Part shown: positions 39,256 through 47,561 of the stretch, piece after piece
Layout: every line of letters starts with the position of its first letter
Position numbering within the stretch: position 1 is the first letter of the stretch
From: Pelodictyon luteolum DSM 273
Lineage (GTDB): Bacteria; Bacteroidota; Chlorobiia; Chlorobiales; Chlorobiaceae
Assembly (NCBI RefSeq): GCF_000012485.1
Contig: NC_007512.1
Coordinates: forward strand, 311,001-375,000
Direction of reading: 5' to 3'
Length of the DNA: 64,000 nt
Made by a program: the position numbers and the translations under genes
Notes under the pieces: generated by a model
What the model saw: the letters and a program-made list of their open reading frames with translations, nothing else
Database searches by the model: none
What the model was told of the DNA's origin: nothing

Positions 39256-40242
39256 ATGGCTGCAAGTGACTGCATAGAGCGCCTCTCCGGCCTTCTCGCG
39301 CTTGACGAGGGCGCAGCCGGAAGCCTCCTGGCCCGTTTTTCCCGGGCGATGTCGGCCGAGCTTCTGGAGCGTGGCTCGGTAGCCGTCAGGGGACTCGGCT
39401 CCTTCAGGATCAGCTACTCACCTCCGCTGAGAGAGTCAGCTGAGAGCGGATGGGTCTACACCGCACCGTCGAACGCCGTCGTCCATGGCCGTCGGACCGG
39501 CCGCGACCAGACCCGGTACCTGCTACGGACCCGTCTGCAGATGGACGAGGGTGACTTGAAGCGGACGTCGAGAGCGCTCTATAAGGCTTTCTCGGGGGCG
39601 CTTGGACGCAACGGCGCACTGATCCTTCCGGGGTTCGGCCGCTTTAGGGAAGATGCCTCCGGGCACAGTGTATTCCGTCTTGAGCCCGGCCTTCATGAAC
39701 TCATCAACAGCGACTATCAGGATCTGGCGTCCATCGGGATGGACGCTCCCTTGCGCCGGAGACGTTTTGCTTCCGTTGCCGGTGCCGCCGCTCTCGCCCT
39801 GGTATGTTTTGCGGCGGGGTTCCTCACTGTCCGCTCCGGCGTGGTGACGGACCTGGCTCATCTGCTGACGGGCGTGTTCCGGTCGGAGGAGCTGCCGCAG
39901 CCGATACCCCTGCCGCCGCCTCCGGCTCCGGCTCTTTCTTCTGGCAGCGTTGCGGAGAATGTGCTGCTTGAGGAGGGGGAGTTCACCATTGTGCTGGCAA
40001 CCTTCACGCGTCGCCCGACCGCCATACGGGAGCAGGCCCGGTTTGATTCGGCGGGCATCACGGCGGTTGTGTGGCCGGCACGCCAGGATGGCCGTGATTA
40101 CTGGCGTCTCCGGACCGGCCGCTACCGGTTAAGGAGTGAAGCGCTCGAAGCCATGCACGGCATGCCGCAGCGGATTGCCGGGGGAGCATATATACAAAAG
40201 GTCATTAAACGGGTTGTCTCCAATGGAGAAAAAGAACTGTAA
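39256..40242 (+). CDS. HU-HU-TM-SPOR protein (IHF-like domains plus peptidoglycan-binding domain)
   Basis: This 328-residue protein combines two HU/IHF-like folds at residues 1-80 (GSVAVRGLGSFRISYSPP) and 92-145 (ALILPGFGRFREDASGHSVFRL). A basic patch RRRR and one membrane helix (about 171-193) follow, then a proline-rich linker and a C-terminal SPOR-like domain (about 252-325; FTIVLATFTRRPTAIREQARF, WRLRTGRYRL). The predicted topology puts the DNA-binding-type folds in the cytoplasm and SPOR at denuded peptidoglycan in the periplasm. This resembles the HU/SPOR proteins of Bacteroidetes (family recollection). It overlaps bchY by 20 bp. DNA binding is inferred only. Confidence 0.75.
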   Translation: MAASDCIERLSGLLALDEGAAGSLLARFSRAMSAELLERGSVAVRGLGSFRISYSPPLRESAESGWVYTAPSNAVVHGRRTGRDQTRYLLRTRLQMDEGDLKRTSRALYKAFSGALGRNGALILPGFGRFREDASGHSVFRLEPGLHELINSDYQDLASIGMDAPLRRRRFASVAGAAALALVCFAAGFLTVRSGVVTDLAHLLTGVFRSEELPQPIPLPPPPAPALSSGSVAENVLLEEGEFTIVLATFTRRPTAIREQARFDSAGITAVVWPARQDGRDYWRLRTGRYRLRSEALEAMHGMPQRIAGGAYIQKVIKRVVSNGEKEL

Positions 40243-41479
40243 GGCACTGCATCCGCAGTCGATGTGCCCCGCGTTCGGCGGGCTCAGGGTCCTGACGAGG
40301 ATCGATGGTTCCCAGGTCTGCCTTGCTGCTGACCAGGGGTGTTTGTACGGACTGACCTTCGTGTCGCAGTTTTATGCGGCCCGCAAGTCCATTATTTCCC
40401 CCGGGCTGATGAATGCAGAGATTTCCGGCGGTACGATGATCGACGACCTGCGCCGTACGGTCGAAGAGATCGCTCTGGATCCATCGGTCCGGCTGATCCC
40501 TGTGGTCAGTACCTGCGTTGCCGAAACGGCCGGCATCGCCGAGGAACTGCTTCCGCGCCGGGCGGGCAACGCAGAGGTGGTGCTCGTGCGCCTGCCGGCG
40601 TTCCAGATCCGTACCCATCCGGAGGCGAAGGATGTGGCGGTTGCAACCCTGCTTGAGCGGTTCGGTGATTTCACGGCTCCGAAGAAACAGCGTTCCGTCG
40701 CTCTCATCGGTGAGATTTTTCCGCTTGACGCCATGACGGTCGGCAGCATACTTCAGAAAATCGGTGTCAGTTCCGTCGTTACCCTTCCGGGCACGGCGCT
40801 CGAGGATTACCGGGAGGCTGGACGGGCAGAGGTTGTGGCCGTGCTCCATCCGTTTTATGAAAAAACGGCGGACCTCATCCGTTCGAATGGCGGAAAGATC
40901 GTCGAGGGCAACCCGATCGGAGCCAATGCTACGGCGGGTTGGATCACCCGCATCGGTCGTGCCCTTGGTCTCGAGTCCGAAGCCGTGGCTGCCGTTGCAC
41001 AGGAGGAGGCTGCGAAGGTACGCGACGTGATGGGCCGCTTCAACACGCTTGATGGACGGGTCATCGTTGCCGGATACGAAGGAAACGAGCTTCCGGTCGT
41101 GCGTCTGCTGCTTGAGGCAGGGCTCGAAGTGCCCTACGCATCGACATCAATCGCCAAAACCCCGCTCTGTATGGAGGACGACCGGGTGATCTCGATGCTC
41201 GGAACCGAAATCAGGTACCGGAAGTTTCTTGAGGACGACATGCAGGCGGTGGAGGAATACGCTCCCGATCTCGTCATCGGCACCACCTCGCTCGACAGCT
41301 TTGCCAAGGAGCGGGGAATCCCGGCCATCTATTATACCAACAATATATCCGCACGCCCGCTCTTTTTCGCGGCCGGGGCCGCAACGGTGCTCGGCATGGT
41401 GGCCGGCCTGCTCCAGCGCAAAGACGCCTGGCAGACCATGCGGGAATACTTCGAGGGGACCCGTCAGGGGCTTTTATGA
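40223..41479 (+). CDS. bchY: Chlorophyllide a reductase subunit Y
   Basis: A nitrogenase-like (NifD/K-related) subunit of chlorophyllide oxidoreductase, which reduces ring B of chlorophyllide a on the way to bacteriochlorophyll a. Near the N-terminus is LHPQSMCPAFGGLRVL, then GCLYGLTFVSQFYAARK and STCVAETAG, whose cysteines are candidate Fe-S ligands. IIAGYEGNEL-like VAGYEGNELPVVRLLLEAG and YYTNNISARPLFFAAGAA close the fold. ATG 40223 gives 418 residues. bchX and bchZ are not in the window. Its stop overlaps the next gene, a histidine kinase, by ATGA. Confidence 0.94.
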   Translation: MEKKNCKALHPQSMCPAFGGLRVLTRIDGSQVCLAADQGCLYGLTFVSQFYAARKSIISPGLMNAEISGGTMIDDLRRTVEEIALDPSVRLIPVVSTCVAETAGIAEELLPRRAGNAEVVLVRLPAFQIRTHPEAKDVAVATLLERFGDFTAPKKQRSVALIGEIFPLDAMTVGSILQKIGVSSVVTLPGTALEDYREAGRAEVVAVLHPFYEKTADLIRSNGGKIVEGNPIGANATAGWITRIGRALGLESEAVAAVAQEEAAKVRDVMGRFNTLDGRVIVAGYEGNELPVVRLLLEAGLEVPYASTSIAKTPLCMEDDRVISMLGTEIRYRKFLEDDMQAVEEYAPDLVIGTTSLDSFAKERGIPAIYYTNNISARPLFFAAGAATVLGMVAGLLQRKDAWQTMREYFEGTRQGLL

Positions 41480-43545
41480 GCCGGATTAAGCAGTTCCGGC
41501 AACGACTGTTCCTCCTCCATCCGGCATCCCTCGGGGGTATTTTTTTTCTTCTCTTCATCGTCTTTCTCACCTCTACCCTGTTCGAATACCGATACCGCCG
41601 GCTTGAGATCGAGCACATGATGGAAGAGGAGGCCTCGCTTCTTATCCATGCACTGACGGTCGGCGCCGAAAACGCCGTTGAGGGCTACAACGGGAACCGT
41701 ACGATTTTGACCGGAAGCCTCCTTGGACGGCTCCGGCTGCTCGACCGGCTCGACCGCCAGAAACCGCTGACCTCCCGTGCCCTTAAGGATATTGCCGGAA
41801 GGGGCGGTATGTACCGGATCAACGTGTTCGACCGCACTGGCCGGCGCATTGCCTGGAATGTTCCGCCAGACCATGCACCCTCGCTTCACCACCGGGATCC
41901 GAAGCGGGAGCTGGAGCCGATTCTGTCCGGCAGGGTTGACTCTCTCGTGCTTGGCATCAGGCAGAGTGTCTCGGACCGGGGCCCCCGGCTCATCGCTGCA
42001 GTCGCCAGAAGCCGGGGTGGTGCCATTGTCGGCAATGTCGATGCTTCAGAGCTGCTTGAGCTCCGCCGAAGTATCGGCGCGGGGAGCCTGATACGGAAAA
42101 TAGGCGCCGGCGAGGCGGGCATCGACTACATCATCTGGCAGGATACCACGGCAATCCTTGCGGCGACCCCGAACGTATCGGGCGCTGACCCGCTGCTTGC
42201 CGATCCGGTGCTTGCGGCTGCCTTGAGGGCGAGGAAGCCGACGACGCGCATGACCGAATTCGACGGCAGGCCTGTGTTTGAGGTCGTCAACCCGTTCTAT
42301 TACCGCGGAGCCAATGTGGGCCTGCTTCGCGTCGGCCTCAGAACCGACCATTTCAACGCGGCCTTCGCCAAGCTCCGCAACCGGTTTTTCATGATGCTCG
42401 GCCTTCTCTTTTTCGGGGGACTCGCCCTGTTCAATCTGGTGATTACCAGGCGCGACAGGGCCCTTGCCGCCGGGGCCTATCAGAGGGTAAGCACTTTTTC
42501 CTCATCGATGCTTACAAGCATGGCCGATGCGGTGCTGTCGGTCAACGGCGCCGGCGCCCTCACCCTCTTGAATGCCGCAGGTGAACGACTGTTCGGGGTT
42601 CGGGCGGATGATGTTCTTGGCAGGTCTGCCGCATCGCTCTCGTTGGAGCTTGCGTCGCTTTTTGCTGAGGCGGCTTCGGGTGAGTTCTCTGTGATGAAGC
42701 GGGAGTTCCGCTGCCGGGCCGGAGGGCGGGAGCATGTGCTCGAGGGAAGCTTCAGCAGGATCTCGGAGGGCCAGGGGGGTGCTGAGGACTGGCAGGGGAC
42801 CGTTGTCGTGCTACGTGACCTCACGGAACACCATGCCATGCAGGAACGACTTGAGCGGCAGGGGAAGCTTACGGCGATGGGTGAACTGGCTTCAGGGGTT
42901 GCCCATGAGATCCGCAACCCGCTGAACGCGATCGGTCTCATCGCCCAGCGGCTTGACATCGAGTTTACCCCGAAGGAAGACGAAGCAGAGTTCCGGCACC
43001 TTCTCCGGACGGTTGTCTCCGAGGTGCACCGCCTCAACGCCATCATCCAGCGATTCCTTCGCTTCGCACGACCGCCGGCGCTCGAGGTGGTTCCGACAGA
43101 TCTGGCTGCATTCGCCGCAGATTACCGTGCAGTGCTTGAGGGTGAGGCCTCGGACAAGGGGGTTGCCTTCAGCCTCTCCGGCGCGCCGGGAACGGTTGCC
43201 CTGATCGATAGGGACCAGATGCAGCAGGTACTGCTCAACATCGTCCGCAACGCCGTGGAAGCTACATCCCGGGGAGGTGCTGTGTCGGTTTCGGTGTCGG
43301 CCGATGCAGGATCGGCTGTCATCGAGGTGGCCGATACCGGAAAAGGAACAACGCCGGATGAGCGTCATCGGATGTTCAACCTCTACTTTACAACGAAGGA
43401 TGACGGAACCGGCATGGGGCTGAGCATCGCAAGCCAGATCGTGCAGTCCCACGGAGGGACGATCGAGGTGAATGACCGCCCGGGGGGCGGAACCGTATTC
43501 AGGATCCTCGTTCCGCAGGCCCCGCCCTCGGGCGGGGATTCCTGA
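41476..43545 (+). CDS. Membrane sensor histidine kinase of a sigma-54 two-component pair
   Basis: A 689-residue NtrB/ZraS-like kinase. TM1 is about residues 19-36, a long periplasmic sensor runs about 40-300 (fold not recognised, possibly dCache-like) and TM2 about 304-324. A PAS-like domain follows (about 338-450), then HisKA with His477 in VAHEIRNPLN, and HATPase_c with NIVRNAVEA, VADTGKG and GTGMGLSIA. The start overlaps the bchY stop (ATGA), indicating translational coupling with a pigment gene. The response-regulator gene follows after 32 bases. A GC-rich hairpin without a T-run lies at 43520-43537 near its 3' end. The signal sensed is unknown. Confidence 0.92.
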   Translation: MSRIKQFRQRLFLLHPASLGGIFFLLFIVFLTSTLFEYRYRRLEIEHMMEEEASLLIHALTVGAENAVEGYNGNRTILTGSLLGRLRLLDRLDRQKPLTSRALKDIAGRGGMYRINVFDRTGRRIAWNVPPDHAPSLHHRDPKRELEPILSGRVDSLVLGIRQSVSDRGPRLIAAVARSRGGAIVGNVDASELLELRRSIGAGSLIRKIGAGEAGIDYIIWQDTTAILAATPNVSGADPLLADPVLAAALRARKPTTRMTEFDGRPVFEVVNPFYYRGANVGLLRVGLRTDHFNAAFAKLRNRFFMMLGLLFFGGLALFNLVITRRDRALAAGAYQRVSTFSSSMLTSMADAVLSVNGAGALTLLNAAGERLFGVRADDVLGRSAASLSLELASLFAEAASGEFSVMKREFRCRAGGREHVLEGSFSRISEGQGGAEDWQGTVVVLRDLTEHHAMQERLERQGKLTAMGELASGVAHEIRNPLNAIGLIAQRLDIEFTPKEDEAEFRHLLRTVVSEVHRLNAIIQRFLRFARPPALEVVPTDLAAFAADYRAVLEGEASDKGVAFSLSGAPGTVALIDRDQMQQVLLNIVRNAVEATSRGGAVSVSVSADAGSAVIEVADTGKGTTPDERHRMFNLYFTTKDDGTGMGLSIASQIVQSHGGTIEVNDRPGGGTVFRILVPQAPPSGGDS

Positions 43546-43577: not shown

Positions 43578-44936
43578 ATGGGACATACGATTCTTGTCGT
43601 TGAAGACGAAAGGGTGCAGCTTGAAAGCATTGCAGGGTTTCTTCTCAAGCAGGGCTACCGGGTCATGACTGCCGACCGACCGGCAGGGGCGCTTGTCATT
43701 GCAGGTGAAGAGGCGGTGGACTTGGTGCTGAGTGATTTCAGAATGCCGGGGATGAGCGGCGTGGAGCTGCTCGCCGGGCTGAAGCAGCTCAATCCCGACA
43801 TCGACGTCATCATCATGACTGCATTCGGCAGCGTCGAATCAGCAACAGAGGCGATGAAACTCGGCGCAATCGACTACATCACCAAGCCTGTCGACCTGCA
43901 TCGCCTGATTGTCATGATCCGCAACACGCTCGAGCGGCGGCAGCTTGCCAGTGAGAACCGCCAGCTCCGTCGTGAACTGGCCGGCCGGACGGGGATGGCG
44001 GGCGTTGTCTCGCAGTCGGCTGCAATGAACAGGGTGATGAGCATTGCCTCGAGGGCAGCATCAAGCAGCGCTGCTGTCCTCATAACCGGCGAGACGGGAA
44101 CCGGCAAGGAGCTGGTCGCCCGGGCTCTCCACTACGGCGGAGACCGGAGGGAGGGGCCGTTCATTGCCGTCAACTGCGCCGCACTGCCTGAATCACTTCT
44201 TGAAAGCGAGCTGTTCGGTCATGAAAAGGGCGCCTTCAGCGGCGCTGACCGTCAGCGGAAAGGCAGGTTCGAGGCTGCTGCGGGCGGGACTCTTTTCATC
44301 GATGAGGTCGGCGATATCCCCCAGTCGCTGCAGGTGAAGCTTCTGCGTGTGCTGCAGGAGAAGACCTACGAACGGGTCGGCAGCTCACAGTCACTCAAGG
44401 CGGATGTGCGCATCGTGGCTGCCACCAACCGGGACCTCGAGGCGATGGTTGCCGATGGAGGATTCCGCAGCGACCTGTTCTACCGCCTGAATGTGGTCCC
44501 TATCCGGATTCCGCCGCTCAGGGAACGGCGTGAAGACATCGGTCCGCTCGTAGACGCCTTTCTTTCGCGCTTTTCGACCGAAAACGGCAAGCCATTATGC
44601 GGGTTGTCCCGCGAGGCGCTGGACCTGCTTATGAAATACCCGTGGCCCGGCAACGTCCGTGAACTTGAAAATGTCATCCAGCAGGCGGTCGTGCTCTCCC
44701 GCGGCGACACCATATACATGGAAGAGTTGCCGCTGCGGGTTCATGAACCGAAAGCTGATATCGCCTCTGCTGCCGACGGCGGCTTTACCCGGCGGGTCGA
44801 GGCGTTCGAACGTGCGCTCATCCGTGAGGCCCTGAGGGATGCCGGCGAAGTGCAGACCCGGGCAGCCGAACTGCTCGGCATCAGCGAGCGGCACCTGCGC
44901 TACAAACTGAAGAAGTACGGCATGAAGCCCGGCTGA
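43578..44936 (+). CDS. Sigma-54-dependent response regulator (NtrC family)
   Basis: A 452-residue enhancer-binding protein. The receiver domain has Asp53 (LSDFRMPG) and Lys103 (ITKPVD). The AAA+ domain has Walker A GETGTGKE (171-178), a GAFSGA loop at 218-223 and FIDEVGDIP. The GAFSGA loop is a Ser variant of the sigma-54-contacting GAFTGA. The C-terminal Fis-type helix-turn-helix is RAAELLGISERHLRYKLKKYG. It is paired with the upstream kinase. Directly downstream are two CGAC-N6-GTCG dyads and a -24/-12 promoter, the expected binding site and target for this class. Confidence 0.95.
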   Translation: MGHTILVVEDERVQLESIAGFLLKQGYRVMTADRPAGALVIAGEEAVDLVLSDFRMPGMSGVELLAGLKQLNPDIDVIIMTAFGSVESATEAMKLGAIDYITKPVDLHRLIVMIRNTLERRQLASENRQLRRELAGRTGMAGVVSQSAAMNRVMSIASRAASSSAAVLITGETGTGKELVARALHYGGDRREGPFIAVNCAALPESLLESELFGHEKGAFSGADRQRKGRFEAAAGGTLFIDEVGDIPQSLQVKLLRVLQEKTYERVGSSQSLKADVRIVAATNRDLEAMVADGGFRSDLFYRLNVVPIRIPPLRERREDIGPLVDAFLSRFSTENGKPLCGLSREALDLLMKYPWPGNVRELENVIQQAVVLSRGDTIYMEELPLRVHEPKADIASAADGGFTRRVEAFERALIREALRDAGEVQTRAAELLGISERHLRYKLKKYGMKPG

Positions 44937-44948
44937 CTCAGTTTCTGT

Positions 44949-44984
44949 TTCGACCATGTGGTCGAACGGGCGACGGCATGGTCG
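44949..44984. promoter_or_regulatory. Tandem dyads, candidate enhancer for the sigma-54 regulator
   Basis: Two copies of CGAC-N6-GTCG lie at 44951-44964 and 44971-44984. The first extends to a perfect 18-bp palindrome, TTCGACCATGTGGTCGAA (44949-44966). Their centres are 20 bp apart, about two helical turns. They sit roughly 105-140 bp upstream of the predicted RNA start, like NtrC-type enhancers. Confidence 0.65.
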
Positions 44985-45061
44985 CTGAGGGCGGGGGTGC
45001 AGGGCAGGCACGGTTGGCTGGGTCACCTTATACTGCGGGCCTTTGCTGGCGTTTGGCAGTG

Positions 45062-45078
45062 TTGGCACGGATATTGAC
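45062..45078 (+). promoter_or_regulatory. Sigma-54 (-24/-12) promoter
   Basis: TTGGCACGGATATTGAC matches YTGGCACG-N4-TTGC with the complete -24 element, exact GG-N10 spacing and one departure, TTGA in place of TTGC at -12. Predicted RNA start is about 45088-45090, and the first downstream ATG is at 45142. Confidence 0.72.
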
Positions 45079-45087
45079 TGATGATGG

Positions 45088-45117
45088 GTGCAGAGGGAGG
45101 ATTCCTTCTCCCTGCAC
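45088..45117 (+). other. Hairpin at the predicted 5' end of the sigma-54 transcript
   Basis: GTGCA and GGGAG (45088-45092, 45095-45099) pair with CTCCC and TGCAC (45108-45117), with a two-base bulge and an 8-base loop. It begins where transcription from the -24/-12 promoter should start, so it may stabilise the leader. This is inferred. Confidence 0.5.
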
Positions 45118-45141: not shown

Positions 45142-45411
45142 ATGAAAAAAATCATCCGTTTCGCGCTCGCCGCCCTTGCTCTTGCGGCATTTCTTCCCTC
45201 AGGCAGCCTGCAGGCAAAGCAGTGGTTCGGAGAGAATCCCCTGAAGCAGGTGCTTGGAATCGGTTTCACCGATGCCGACCTTGACGGCTATAACGACAAC
45301 GCTCCCGATGCCGACGGCGACGGCATCCCGAACGGGCAGGATCCGGATTATGTTGCTGTTCCCGCCGGAACCCCGACGGCAGACTGTGACGGTACCGGCA
45401 GGCTTCGCTGA
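45142..45411 (+). CDS. Small exported protein with thrombospondin-3-like aspartate repeats
   Basis: The 89-residue product has a clear signal peptide (MKKIIRFALAALALAAFLPS, cleavage near LQA-K). A short mature part follows, with an aspartate-rich calcium-binding-type array: TDADLDGYNDNAPDADGDG followed by IPNGQDPD. The spacing DxDxDGxxDxxxDxDxDGxxNxxD is that of thrombospondin type 3 repeats and EF-hand-like loops. Calcium binding is inferred from the pattern. It is the first gene after the sigma-54 promoter and is followed by a strong terminator, so it may be made in excess over the next two genes. Confidence 0.78.
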   Translation: MKKIIRFALAALALAAFLPSGSLQAKQWFGENPLKQVLGIGFTDADLDGYNDNAPDADGDGIPNGQDPDYVAVPAGTPTADCDGTGRLR

Positions 45412-45420
45412 ACCATCCAT

Positions 45421-45461
45421 CCGTAGCGGCAGAGAGGCAAGCCCTGCCGCTACGGTTTTTA
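45421..45461 (+). terminator. Intrinsic terminator after the first small exported gene
   Basis: A perfect 12-bp stem pairs CCGTAGCGGCAG (45421-45432) with CTGCCGCTACGG (45444-45455) and is followed directly by T5. It separates the first small gene from the second and may act as a partial terminator or attenuator if they share a promoter. Confidence 0.85.
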
Positions 45462-45486: not shown

Positions 45487-45864
45487 ATGAACGCACCGAT
45501 AAAACACCTTCTGATCTTTTTCCCGGTTCTCTGCCTGCTGCTTCTGGTTCCGGGTGACTCACCCTCCGGTTCCGCGGTGGCTGGACCTCCATTGTTTCGA
45601 GAAAGCGGCGGGGGCCGTGTTCCCCCTGAGGAGCGCCTGCGCTTCCGTGATGAGGACGGCGACGGAATCAACGACCTCATCAGGGACAGCGACGGTGATG
45701 GCATTCCTGATGGTCGTGACGGGGACGGCAGCGGACCCGGCGACCGGCGGTTCAGGGACGGGAGCATGCAGGGCGGCGGCCGCAGCATTGAACGCCAGGG
45801 CGGCTCCTTGAGGGCGCCTTCTTCGTCCGGCCGACCGGCTGGAAGCGGCAGCGGCAGAAAATGA
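45487..45864 (+). CDS. Small exported protein with Asp-rich repeat and Gly/Ser/Arg tail
   Basis: A 125-residue product with signal peptide (HLLIFFPVLCLLLLVPGDSPSGS). It carries the same repeat type as the gene before it, RDEDGDGINDLIRDSDGDG then IPDGRDGDG. A low-complexity tail rich in Gly, Ser and Arg follows. The shared repeat suggests the two small proteins are functionally related, though the rest differs. No enzyme motif is present. It lies 7 bases before the barrel-protein gene, so the two are probably co-transcribed. Calcium binding and an extracytoplasmic or surface location are inferred. Confidence 0.72.
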   Translation: MNAPIKHLLIFFPVLCLLLLVPGDSPSGSAVAGPPLFRESGGGRVPPEERLRFRDEDGDGINDLIRDSDGDGIPDGRDGDGSGPGDRRFRDGSMQGGGRSIERQGGSLRAPSSSGRPAGSGSGRK

Positions 45865-46992: not shown

Positions 46993-47010
46993 GGAGGTCT
47001 TCAGACCTCC
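46993..47010 (+). terminator. Possible terminator between barrel gene and frr
   Basis: GGAGGTCT (46993-47000) pairs with AGACCTCC (47003-47010). A T-rich stretch follows only after several bases, and the stem overlaps the frr 3' end. Weak as an intrinsic terminator. Confidence 0.35.
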
Positions 47011-47561
47011 ATGATCTCTTTTTCTTTCTGTGCGATGAGTTCGTTGACCTGTTTCTCGAAGCGGTGAAGGAGGTCATCGGCGTCTTTTTTTCCGCGGTTG
47101 CGGTCATCTTCGCTGATGGCTTTCTCCTTTTCGAGCTTTTCAATCTCCTGGATCATGTCGCGGCGGTGGTTGCGCAGGGAGACTTTCGAATCTTCCCCGA
47201 ACTTCCTGGTGAGTTTGACGAACTCTTTGCGGCGCTCTTCGGTGAGCGGGGGAATGGATACCCTGATGCTCTGTCCTTCGGCGGCGGGGTTCAGTCCGAG
47301 GTTGGCGTCGCGAATCGCTTTTTCTGTGGCGGCGACCATCGATTTGTCCCACACCTGCACGAGGAGGGTGTGGATATCCGATACGCCGACGTTGCCGACC
47401 TGACGGAGCGGCATTGTCTGGCCGTAGGCCTCCACCTTCACCCTGTCAAGCAGTGCGGTTGTGGCCTTTCCGGTCCGGATCGAAGCGATTTCATGCTGAA
47501 ACGCCTCGATGGCCTTTTTCATTTTCTGCTCGCTCTTCTGGCTTACATCTTTGACGTTCAT
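47001..47561 (-). CDS. frr: Ribosome recycling factor
   Basis: It releases ribosomes from mRNA after termination together with EF-G. The 186-residue protein shows the long-helix pattern and conserved blocks IRTGKATTALLDRVKVEAYG, MPLRQVGNVGV, LGLNPAAEGQSIRVSIPPLTEERRKEFVKL and RNHRRDMIQEIEKLEKEKAISEDDR. The length is exactly typical. It lies 48 bases downstream of rpmE on the same strand, so a shared transcript is plausible. Confidence 0.97.
   Translation of the reverse strand: MNVKDVSQKSEQKMKKAIEAFQHEIASIRTGKATTALLDRVKVEAYGQTMPLRQVGNVGVSDIHTLLVQVWDKSMVAATEKAIRDANLGLNPAAEGQSIRVSIPPLTEERRKEFVKLTRKFGEDSKVSLRNHRRDMIQEIEKLEKEKAISEDDRNRGKKDADDLLHRFEKQVNELIAQKEKEIMEV

Follow-up and report, generated by a model that had tools for sequence, protein, structure and literature searches.

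A tandem palindrome beside a two-component system very probably marks sigma-54 promoters of small secreted proteins in some green sulfur bacteria

Twin palindromes between a response regulator gene and a gene for a small secreted-type protein in Pelodictyon luteolum DSM 273 are very probably the seat of a two-component regulator that, in a subset of green sulfur bacteria, activates sigma-54 promoters of small secreted proteins. We hold with high confidence that these dyads are a tandem NtrC-class enhancer bound by the regulator encoded upstream of them. The window analysed here is a stretch of 64,000 nucleotides from this genome, which is a single contig of 2,364,842 bp. Along the locus the order is bchY, sensor kinase, response regulator, dyads, promoter, two genes for small secreted-type proteins (S1 and S2), an outer-membrane barrel gene and a convergent gene (Table 1).

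Table 1. Features of the enhancer locus and of a second site in the same genome (positions are those of the window, or of L060 where so marked)
Feature	Position	Strand	Remarks
bchY	40136-41479		NCBIfam BchY, score above cut-off
Sensor histidine kinase	41476-43545	+	Pfam sCache_3_2, PAS, HisKA, HATPase_c; orthologs in 40 of 98 Chlorobia genomes
NtrC-class response regulator, presumed enhancer-binding protein	43578-44936	+	Pfam receiver, sigma-54 interaction domain, HTH_8
Dyad 1, TTCGACCA-TG-TGGTCGAA	44949-44966		Core CGAC-N6-GTCG at 44951-44964; from sequence, kept in relatives
Dyad 2, GCGAC-GGCATG-GTCGC	44970-44985		Core at 44971-44984; from sequence, register kept
Sigma-54-like promoter (-24/-12), TGGCACGGATATTGA	45063-45077	+	Kept in relatives, 75-98 bp from dyad 2
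S1, 89-aa secreted-type protein, DxDGDG loops	45142-45411	+	Conserved after enhancer
Probable intrinsic terminator, S1/S2 interval	45421-45460	+	CCGTAGCGGCAG, 11-nt loop, CTGCCGCTACGG, T-rich tail; read from sequence
S2, 125-aa secreted-type protein, DxDGDG loops	45487-45864	+	Many genomes have relatives at this position
Outer-membrane beta-barrel protein, 367 aa	45869-46972	+	AlphaFold2 model; orthologs 3' of S1/S2 in relatives
Convergent gene	47001-47561		Read as frr by eye
Second tandem dyad	L060 4550-4583 (G000:C1:1116549)		Exact
Promoter of second site, TGGCACGCTTCTTGA	L060 4674-4688
124-aa secreted DxDGDG protein, second site	L060 4748-5122		Seems to have a terminator of its own downstream

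The two CGAC-N6-GTCG dyads named in a preliminary description of this DNA are present, 20 bp apart from centre to centre. The same description called one of them a perfect 18-bp palindrome, which is slightly overstated because its centre, TG, is not its own complement; with two perfect arms of 8 bp, the element is an 8+2+8 dyad. The arms of dyad 2 are 5 bp long (GCGAC/GTCGC). A first-order Markov model derived from the window gives an expectation of 0.002 tandem copies per strand in 2.36 Mb, and the genome has two exact copies, so the arrangement is not due to chance. When two mismatches are allowed the genome yields four tandem matches, which is the control level (4), and at the three of these whose loci were read no sigma-54 element is present.

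Conservation was followed through 98 Chlorobia genomes, 40 of which, all from one family, carry the kinase. Within the family, 25 of 61 genomes, counting this one, have a kinase ortholog, and the downstream DNA was read in 24 relatives; the kinase of one relative is 89% identical, and the other close relatives belong to Chlorobium or the Chlorobiaceae. Exact tandem dyads occur in 31 of the 40 kinase-bearing genomes and in 0 of the 58 others, and the reversed pattern, used as a control, has no match in any of the 98. A search for one dyad with TGGYAYN5TTG at 74-104 bp hit 34 of 40 kinase genomes versus 3 of 58 without the kinase. Five of the six misses (G009, G040, G052, G053, G057) have a tandem dyad with 1-2 mismatches at 88-89 bp from the promoter; for the sixth, G066, the searches showed no site. 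With the gap window moved to 41-71 bp only two matches remained, again the control level, and those at 103-133 bp are a mixture of dyad 1 of genuine sites with chance or coding matches. The search for one dyad plus promoter imposed one dyad and the promoter letters and left the second dyad and its register free, and both were seen in all but one of the matches fronting genes of the target kind; the register in G023 is 21 bp. The match in G034, a genome without the kinase, has no second dyad.

Fisher tests on the co-occurrence give tiny p-values that overstate the evidence, because the genomes are related and the counts are not independent; the variety of gene contexts described below is the better argument. 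The preliminary description had named lack of conservation between related species as one finding that would count against its enhancer reading. The dyads withstood this check, and comparison strongly supports that reading: the dyads, their 20-bp register and the sigma-54-like promoter are kept in nearly every kinase-bearing Chlorobiaceae genome. A set of 20 non-redundant sites with two dyads at a 20-bp register gives a dyad 1 consensus close to TCGACCATATGGTCGA; conservation is weak in the spacer and at the inner positions of dyad 2.

The promoter element is conserved at all 20 of these sites, mostly with TTGA as the -12 element where TTGC is usual, and sigma-54 itself is encoded in the genome (PF04552 match). 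From TGGCACGGATATTGA at 45063 the RNA start is predicted near 45089. Counted from there, the dyads are centred at about -131 and -111, in agreement with the 105-140 bp that the preliminary description had estimated. The gap from dyad 2 to the promoter is 78 bp in the window. Among relatives the gaps from dyad 2 to the TGG cluster at 86-90 bp, fewer sites have 75-79 bp or 98 bp, and among sites with two mismatches or fewer none has 80-85 or 91-97 bp. An off-peak phase test after collapsing similar sites (p about 0.05) is no more than suggestive of helical phasing of the gap. In the sister species the gap is 98 bp versus 78 bp in the window, a difference of 20 bp, and in its spacer (L036 4340-4500) a 10-bp unit (GGCGAATGAC/T) is repeated about three times; the spacer may thus grow by whole helix turns.

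In most of the 24 relatives the regulator stop codon is followed by the dyads, the sigma-54-like element and a gene for a small secreted protein. The dyads are absent 3' of the regulator in three (G001, G009, G058). In these three and in G003, G015, G033 and G039 they front a gene for a monohaem cytochrome c that lies a short way 5' of the kinase, and in six of the seven a DUF4405 gene lies between cytochrome c and kinase. Dyads preceding such a cytochrome c-DUF4405-kinase row, as seen in L130, L131, L132, L133, L134 and L135, would make the two-component system autoregulated there. DUF4405 and cytochrome genes were considered as a definition of the regulon and rejected, DUF4405 relatives being found in 57 of 61 genomes with the kinase present or absent. 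A genome scan, as the preliminary description had proposed, turned up a second site of like design before a related gene. This site is also found in the sister species (G017), and in both genomes it fronts a 124-aa secreted protein with a DSDGDGIFNGQDADYVRP-type stretch. In G020 and G053, tandem sites without an exact promoter match likewise front secreted proteins resembling S1 and S2. Across the cytochrome c operons and the stand-alone secreted-protein gene, then, the dyads move with the promoter and not with the 3' end of the regulator gene.

The regulator matches PF00158 (E 2.3e-72) and PF02954 (E 3e-11), it contains GETGTGKE and, at residue 218, GAFSGA, a GAFTGA motif with serine in place of threonine, and D53 is its probable phospho-acceptor. 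The sigma-54 contact loop (window 44229-44246) reads GAFSGA here and in the sister species and GAFTGA in most orthologs. The recognition helix, ERHLRYKLKKYG, is nearly invariant in 23 regulator orthologs. It differs from those of five other activators in this genome, which were read from the seven strong sigma-54 activator domains with L151 left out. Recognition helix, gene adjacency and co-occurrence, which fall short of proof, together make the regulator encoded upstream the likely binder of the dyads. The sCache_3_2 domain of the kinase is probably periplasmic. In three relatives (L010, L013 and L025) the kinase match contains one internal TGA, either a real disruption or a sequencing error.

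The seven activator domains also leave room for an enhancer that serves another DNA-binding protein, be it another sigma-54 activator or a co-inherited factor, with the adjacent regulator acting elsewhere. Against such a binder, presence of the site tracks the kinase/regulator locus, the site usually abuts the regulator gene, and the five other activators differ in their recognition helices; we consider it unlikely. Less likely still is a repressor site or an operator unrelated to sigma-54 activation. Palindromes at 20-bp spacing are also typical of repressor operators, but the dyads lie 75-98 bp upstream of the -24 element and not over the promoter, nearly all sites have a sigma-54-type element at that distance, and sigma-54 promoters require a remote activator site.

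An RNA element, whether a hairpin terminator or a 3' stabiliser of the regulator mRNA, would fit the position of the repeat after the regulator stop codon and its folding, which is better than that of shuffles, with z of -2.8 for the + strand and -3.9 for the - strand. Folding is a by-product of tandem palindromes, however, and no T-run follows the repeat. The second site sits between divergent genes, hence in no 3' end, and in relatives the repeat fronts other operons. After the folding test we rejected the RNA element on this genomic context and regard it as very improbable. Chance resemblance in G+C-rich DNA might be suspected from the single motif, which is not rare and is mildly enriched in the window (6 copies versus 2.05 expected, a count reached in 2 of 100 shuffles). 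Conservation, the fixed register and the genome-wide rarity of the tandem form already refute this explanation, and its probability is negligible.

For the preferred enhancer bound by the adjacent regulator, we infer a course of events from the identity of the binder onwards. Regulator dimers would occupy both palindromes, about two helix turns apart and therefore on the same face of the DNA. The partner kinase would phosphorylate the regulator, and an ATPase ring would form on the dyad DNA. Looping would take out the 78-bp stretch that separates dyad 2 from the promoter, or 75-98 bp among relatives, letting the ring contact sigma-54 RNA polymerase at 45063-45077 and open the promoter. S1 would thereby be switched on, and S2 and the outer-membrane barrel would be expressed through read-through of the terminator. 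A like enhancer would drive the second secreted-protein gene of P. luteolum, as well as the cytochrome c-DUF4405-kinase-regulator genes of some relatives.

At glnAp2, NtrC is an enhancer-binding protein with multiple upstream activating sequences. Activators of the NtrC class bind such sequences and reach sigma-54 polymerase by looping (PMC7175178), and several enhancer sites are needed to assemble the NorR oligomer at norVW (PMC2941729). The locus described here shares with the NorR and NtrC systems more than one palindromic site per promoter, about 100-140 bp upstream of the start, a sigma-54 -24/-12 element, and an activator with an AAA+ sigma-54 interaction domain and a Fis-type HTH. It is unlike them in its TCGACCATATGGTCGA-like site, the two sites at a fixed 20-bp register, its sCache_3_2 sensor kinase and its secreted DxDGDG targets; NorR, moreover, has three sites and a GAF domain. 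The best-scoring named families for the regulator are those of AtoS-AtoC (NF008469) and ZraS-ZraR (NF007689), which share its domain order. Its scores lie below the NCBIfam cut-offs for AtoC (521.5 bits, cut-off 714), ZraR (425.3, cut-off 760), NtrC in the narrow sense, NR(I) (437, cut-off 558.6), and the PEP-CTERM/exosortase regulator PrsR (404.2, cut-off 502.6), and by this measure it is none of these four. ZraR also controls a gene for a periplasmic protein.

As predicted here, the mechanism is of a known type, and the binding specificity and the regulon are new. Activator motifs and regulons of sigma-54 have likewise been defined by comparative genomics in Desulfovibrio vulgaris (PMC4641369), in a paper in whose main text the strings CGAC and GTCG are both absent and Chlorobi go unmentioned. 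In the open-access literature we found no earlier description of the regulator, the site or the targets, and nothing relevant on Chlorobium sigma-54 enhancers, RpoN regulons or thrombospondin-type repeats, although such absence is weak evidence. The site would thus provide a sequence-defined sigma-54 regulon for the green sulfur bacteria, a group without a described sigma-54 enhancer in the literature searched, and would assign concrete targets (secreted DxDGDG proteins, an outer-membrane barrel and a cytochrome c) to an orphan two-component system. The tandem dyad is a highly specific search key. The sites also form a natural promoter set whose enhancer-promoter gap apparently varies in helical steps, useful for testing the rules of looping.

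Both S1 and S2 are short proteins whose starts look like signal peptides and whose acidic DxDGDG loops by eye resemble calcium-binding repeats; neither matched a Pfam or NCBIfam family. The strong G+C hairpin and T-rich tail between them (45421-45460) suggest a higher output of S1 than of S2 and the barrel; this terminator was not listed by a simple scan, whose loop limit is 8. The barrel protein of the window has no Pfam match. Its AlphaFold2 model has 16 strands at a mean pLDDT of 85.6, and a fold search returned general porin-like matches (OprD/AlgE, TM about 0.5) that give no function. As for a Slam-like barrel of type XI secretion, one relative has a SlipAM match (E 3.6e-6); the window model has general porin matches only.

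Taken from sequence, the targets are best read as a small regulon of secreted proteins and an outer-membrane barrel. A wider proposal, which we offer as possible and on balance doubtful, is that the dyad marks an undescribed Chlorobium surface-protein programme. One two-component system and one enhancer design would then serve several duplicated secreted calcium-loop-like proteins, a barrel that perhaps exports them and, for some of the species, also a pair of periplasmic electron-transfer proteins; through its signal the kinase may couple the cell surface to redox or nutrient state. In some relatives the cluster runs on to a flavoprotein that by eye is like sulfide:quinone oxidoreductase (L040 6671-7822, L043 6719-7870, L046 6152-7321), a hint of a possible sulfur or redox role. 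Lying 3' of the second site (L060 5705-7375) is a gene for a TPR protein of 556 aa, which weakly resembles PgaA/Slam-type export porins and may be a partner for the 124-aa secreted protein.
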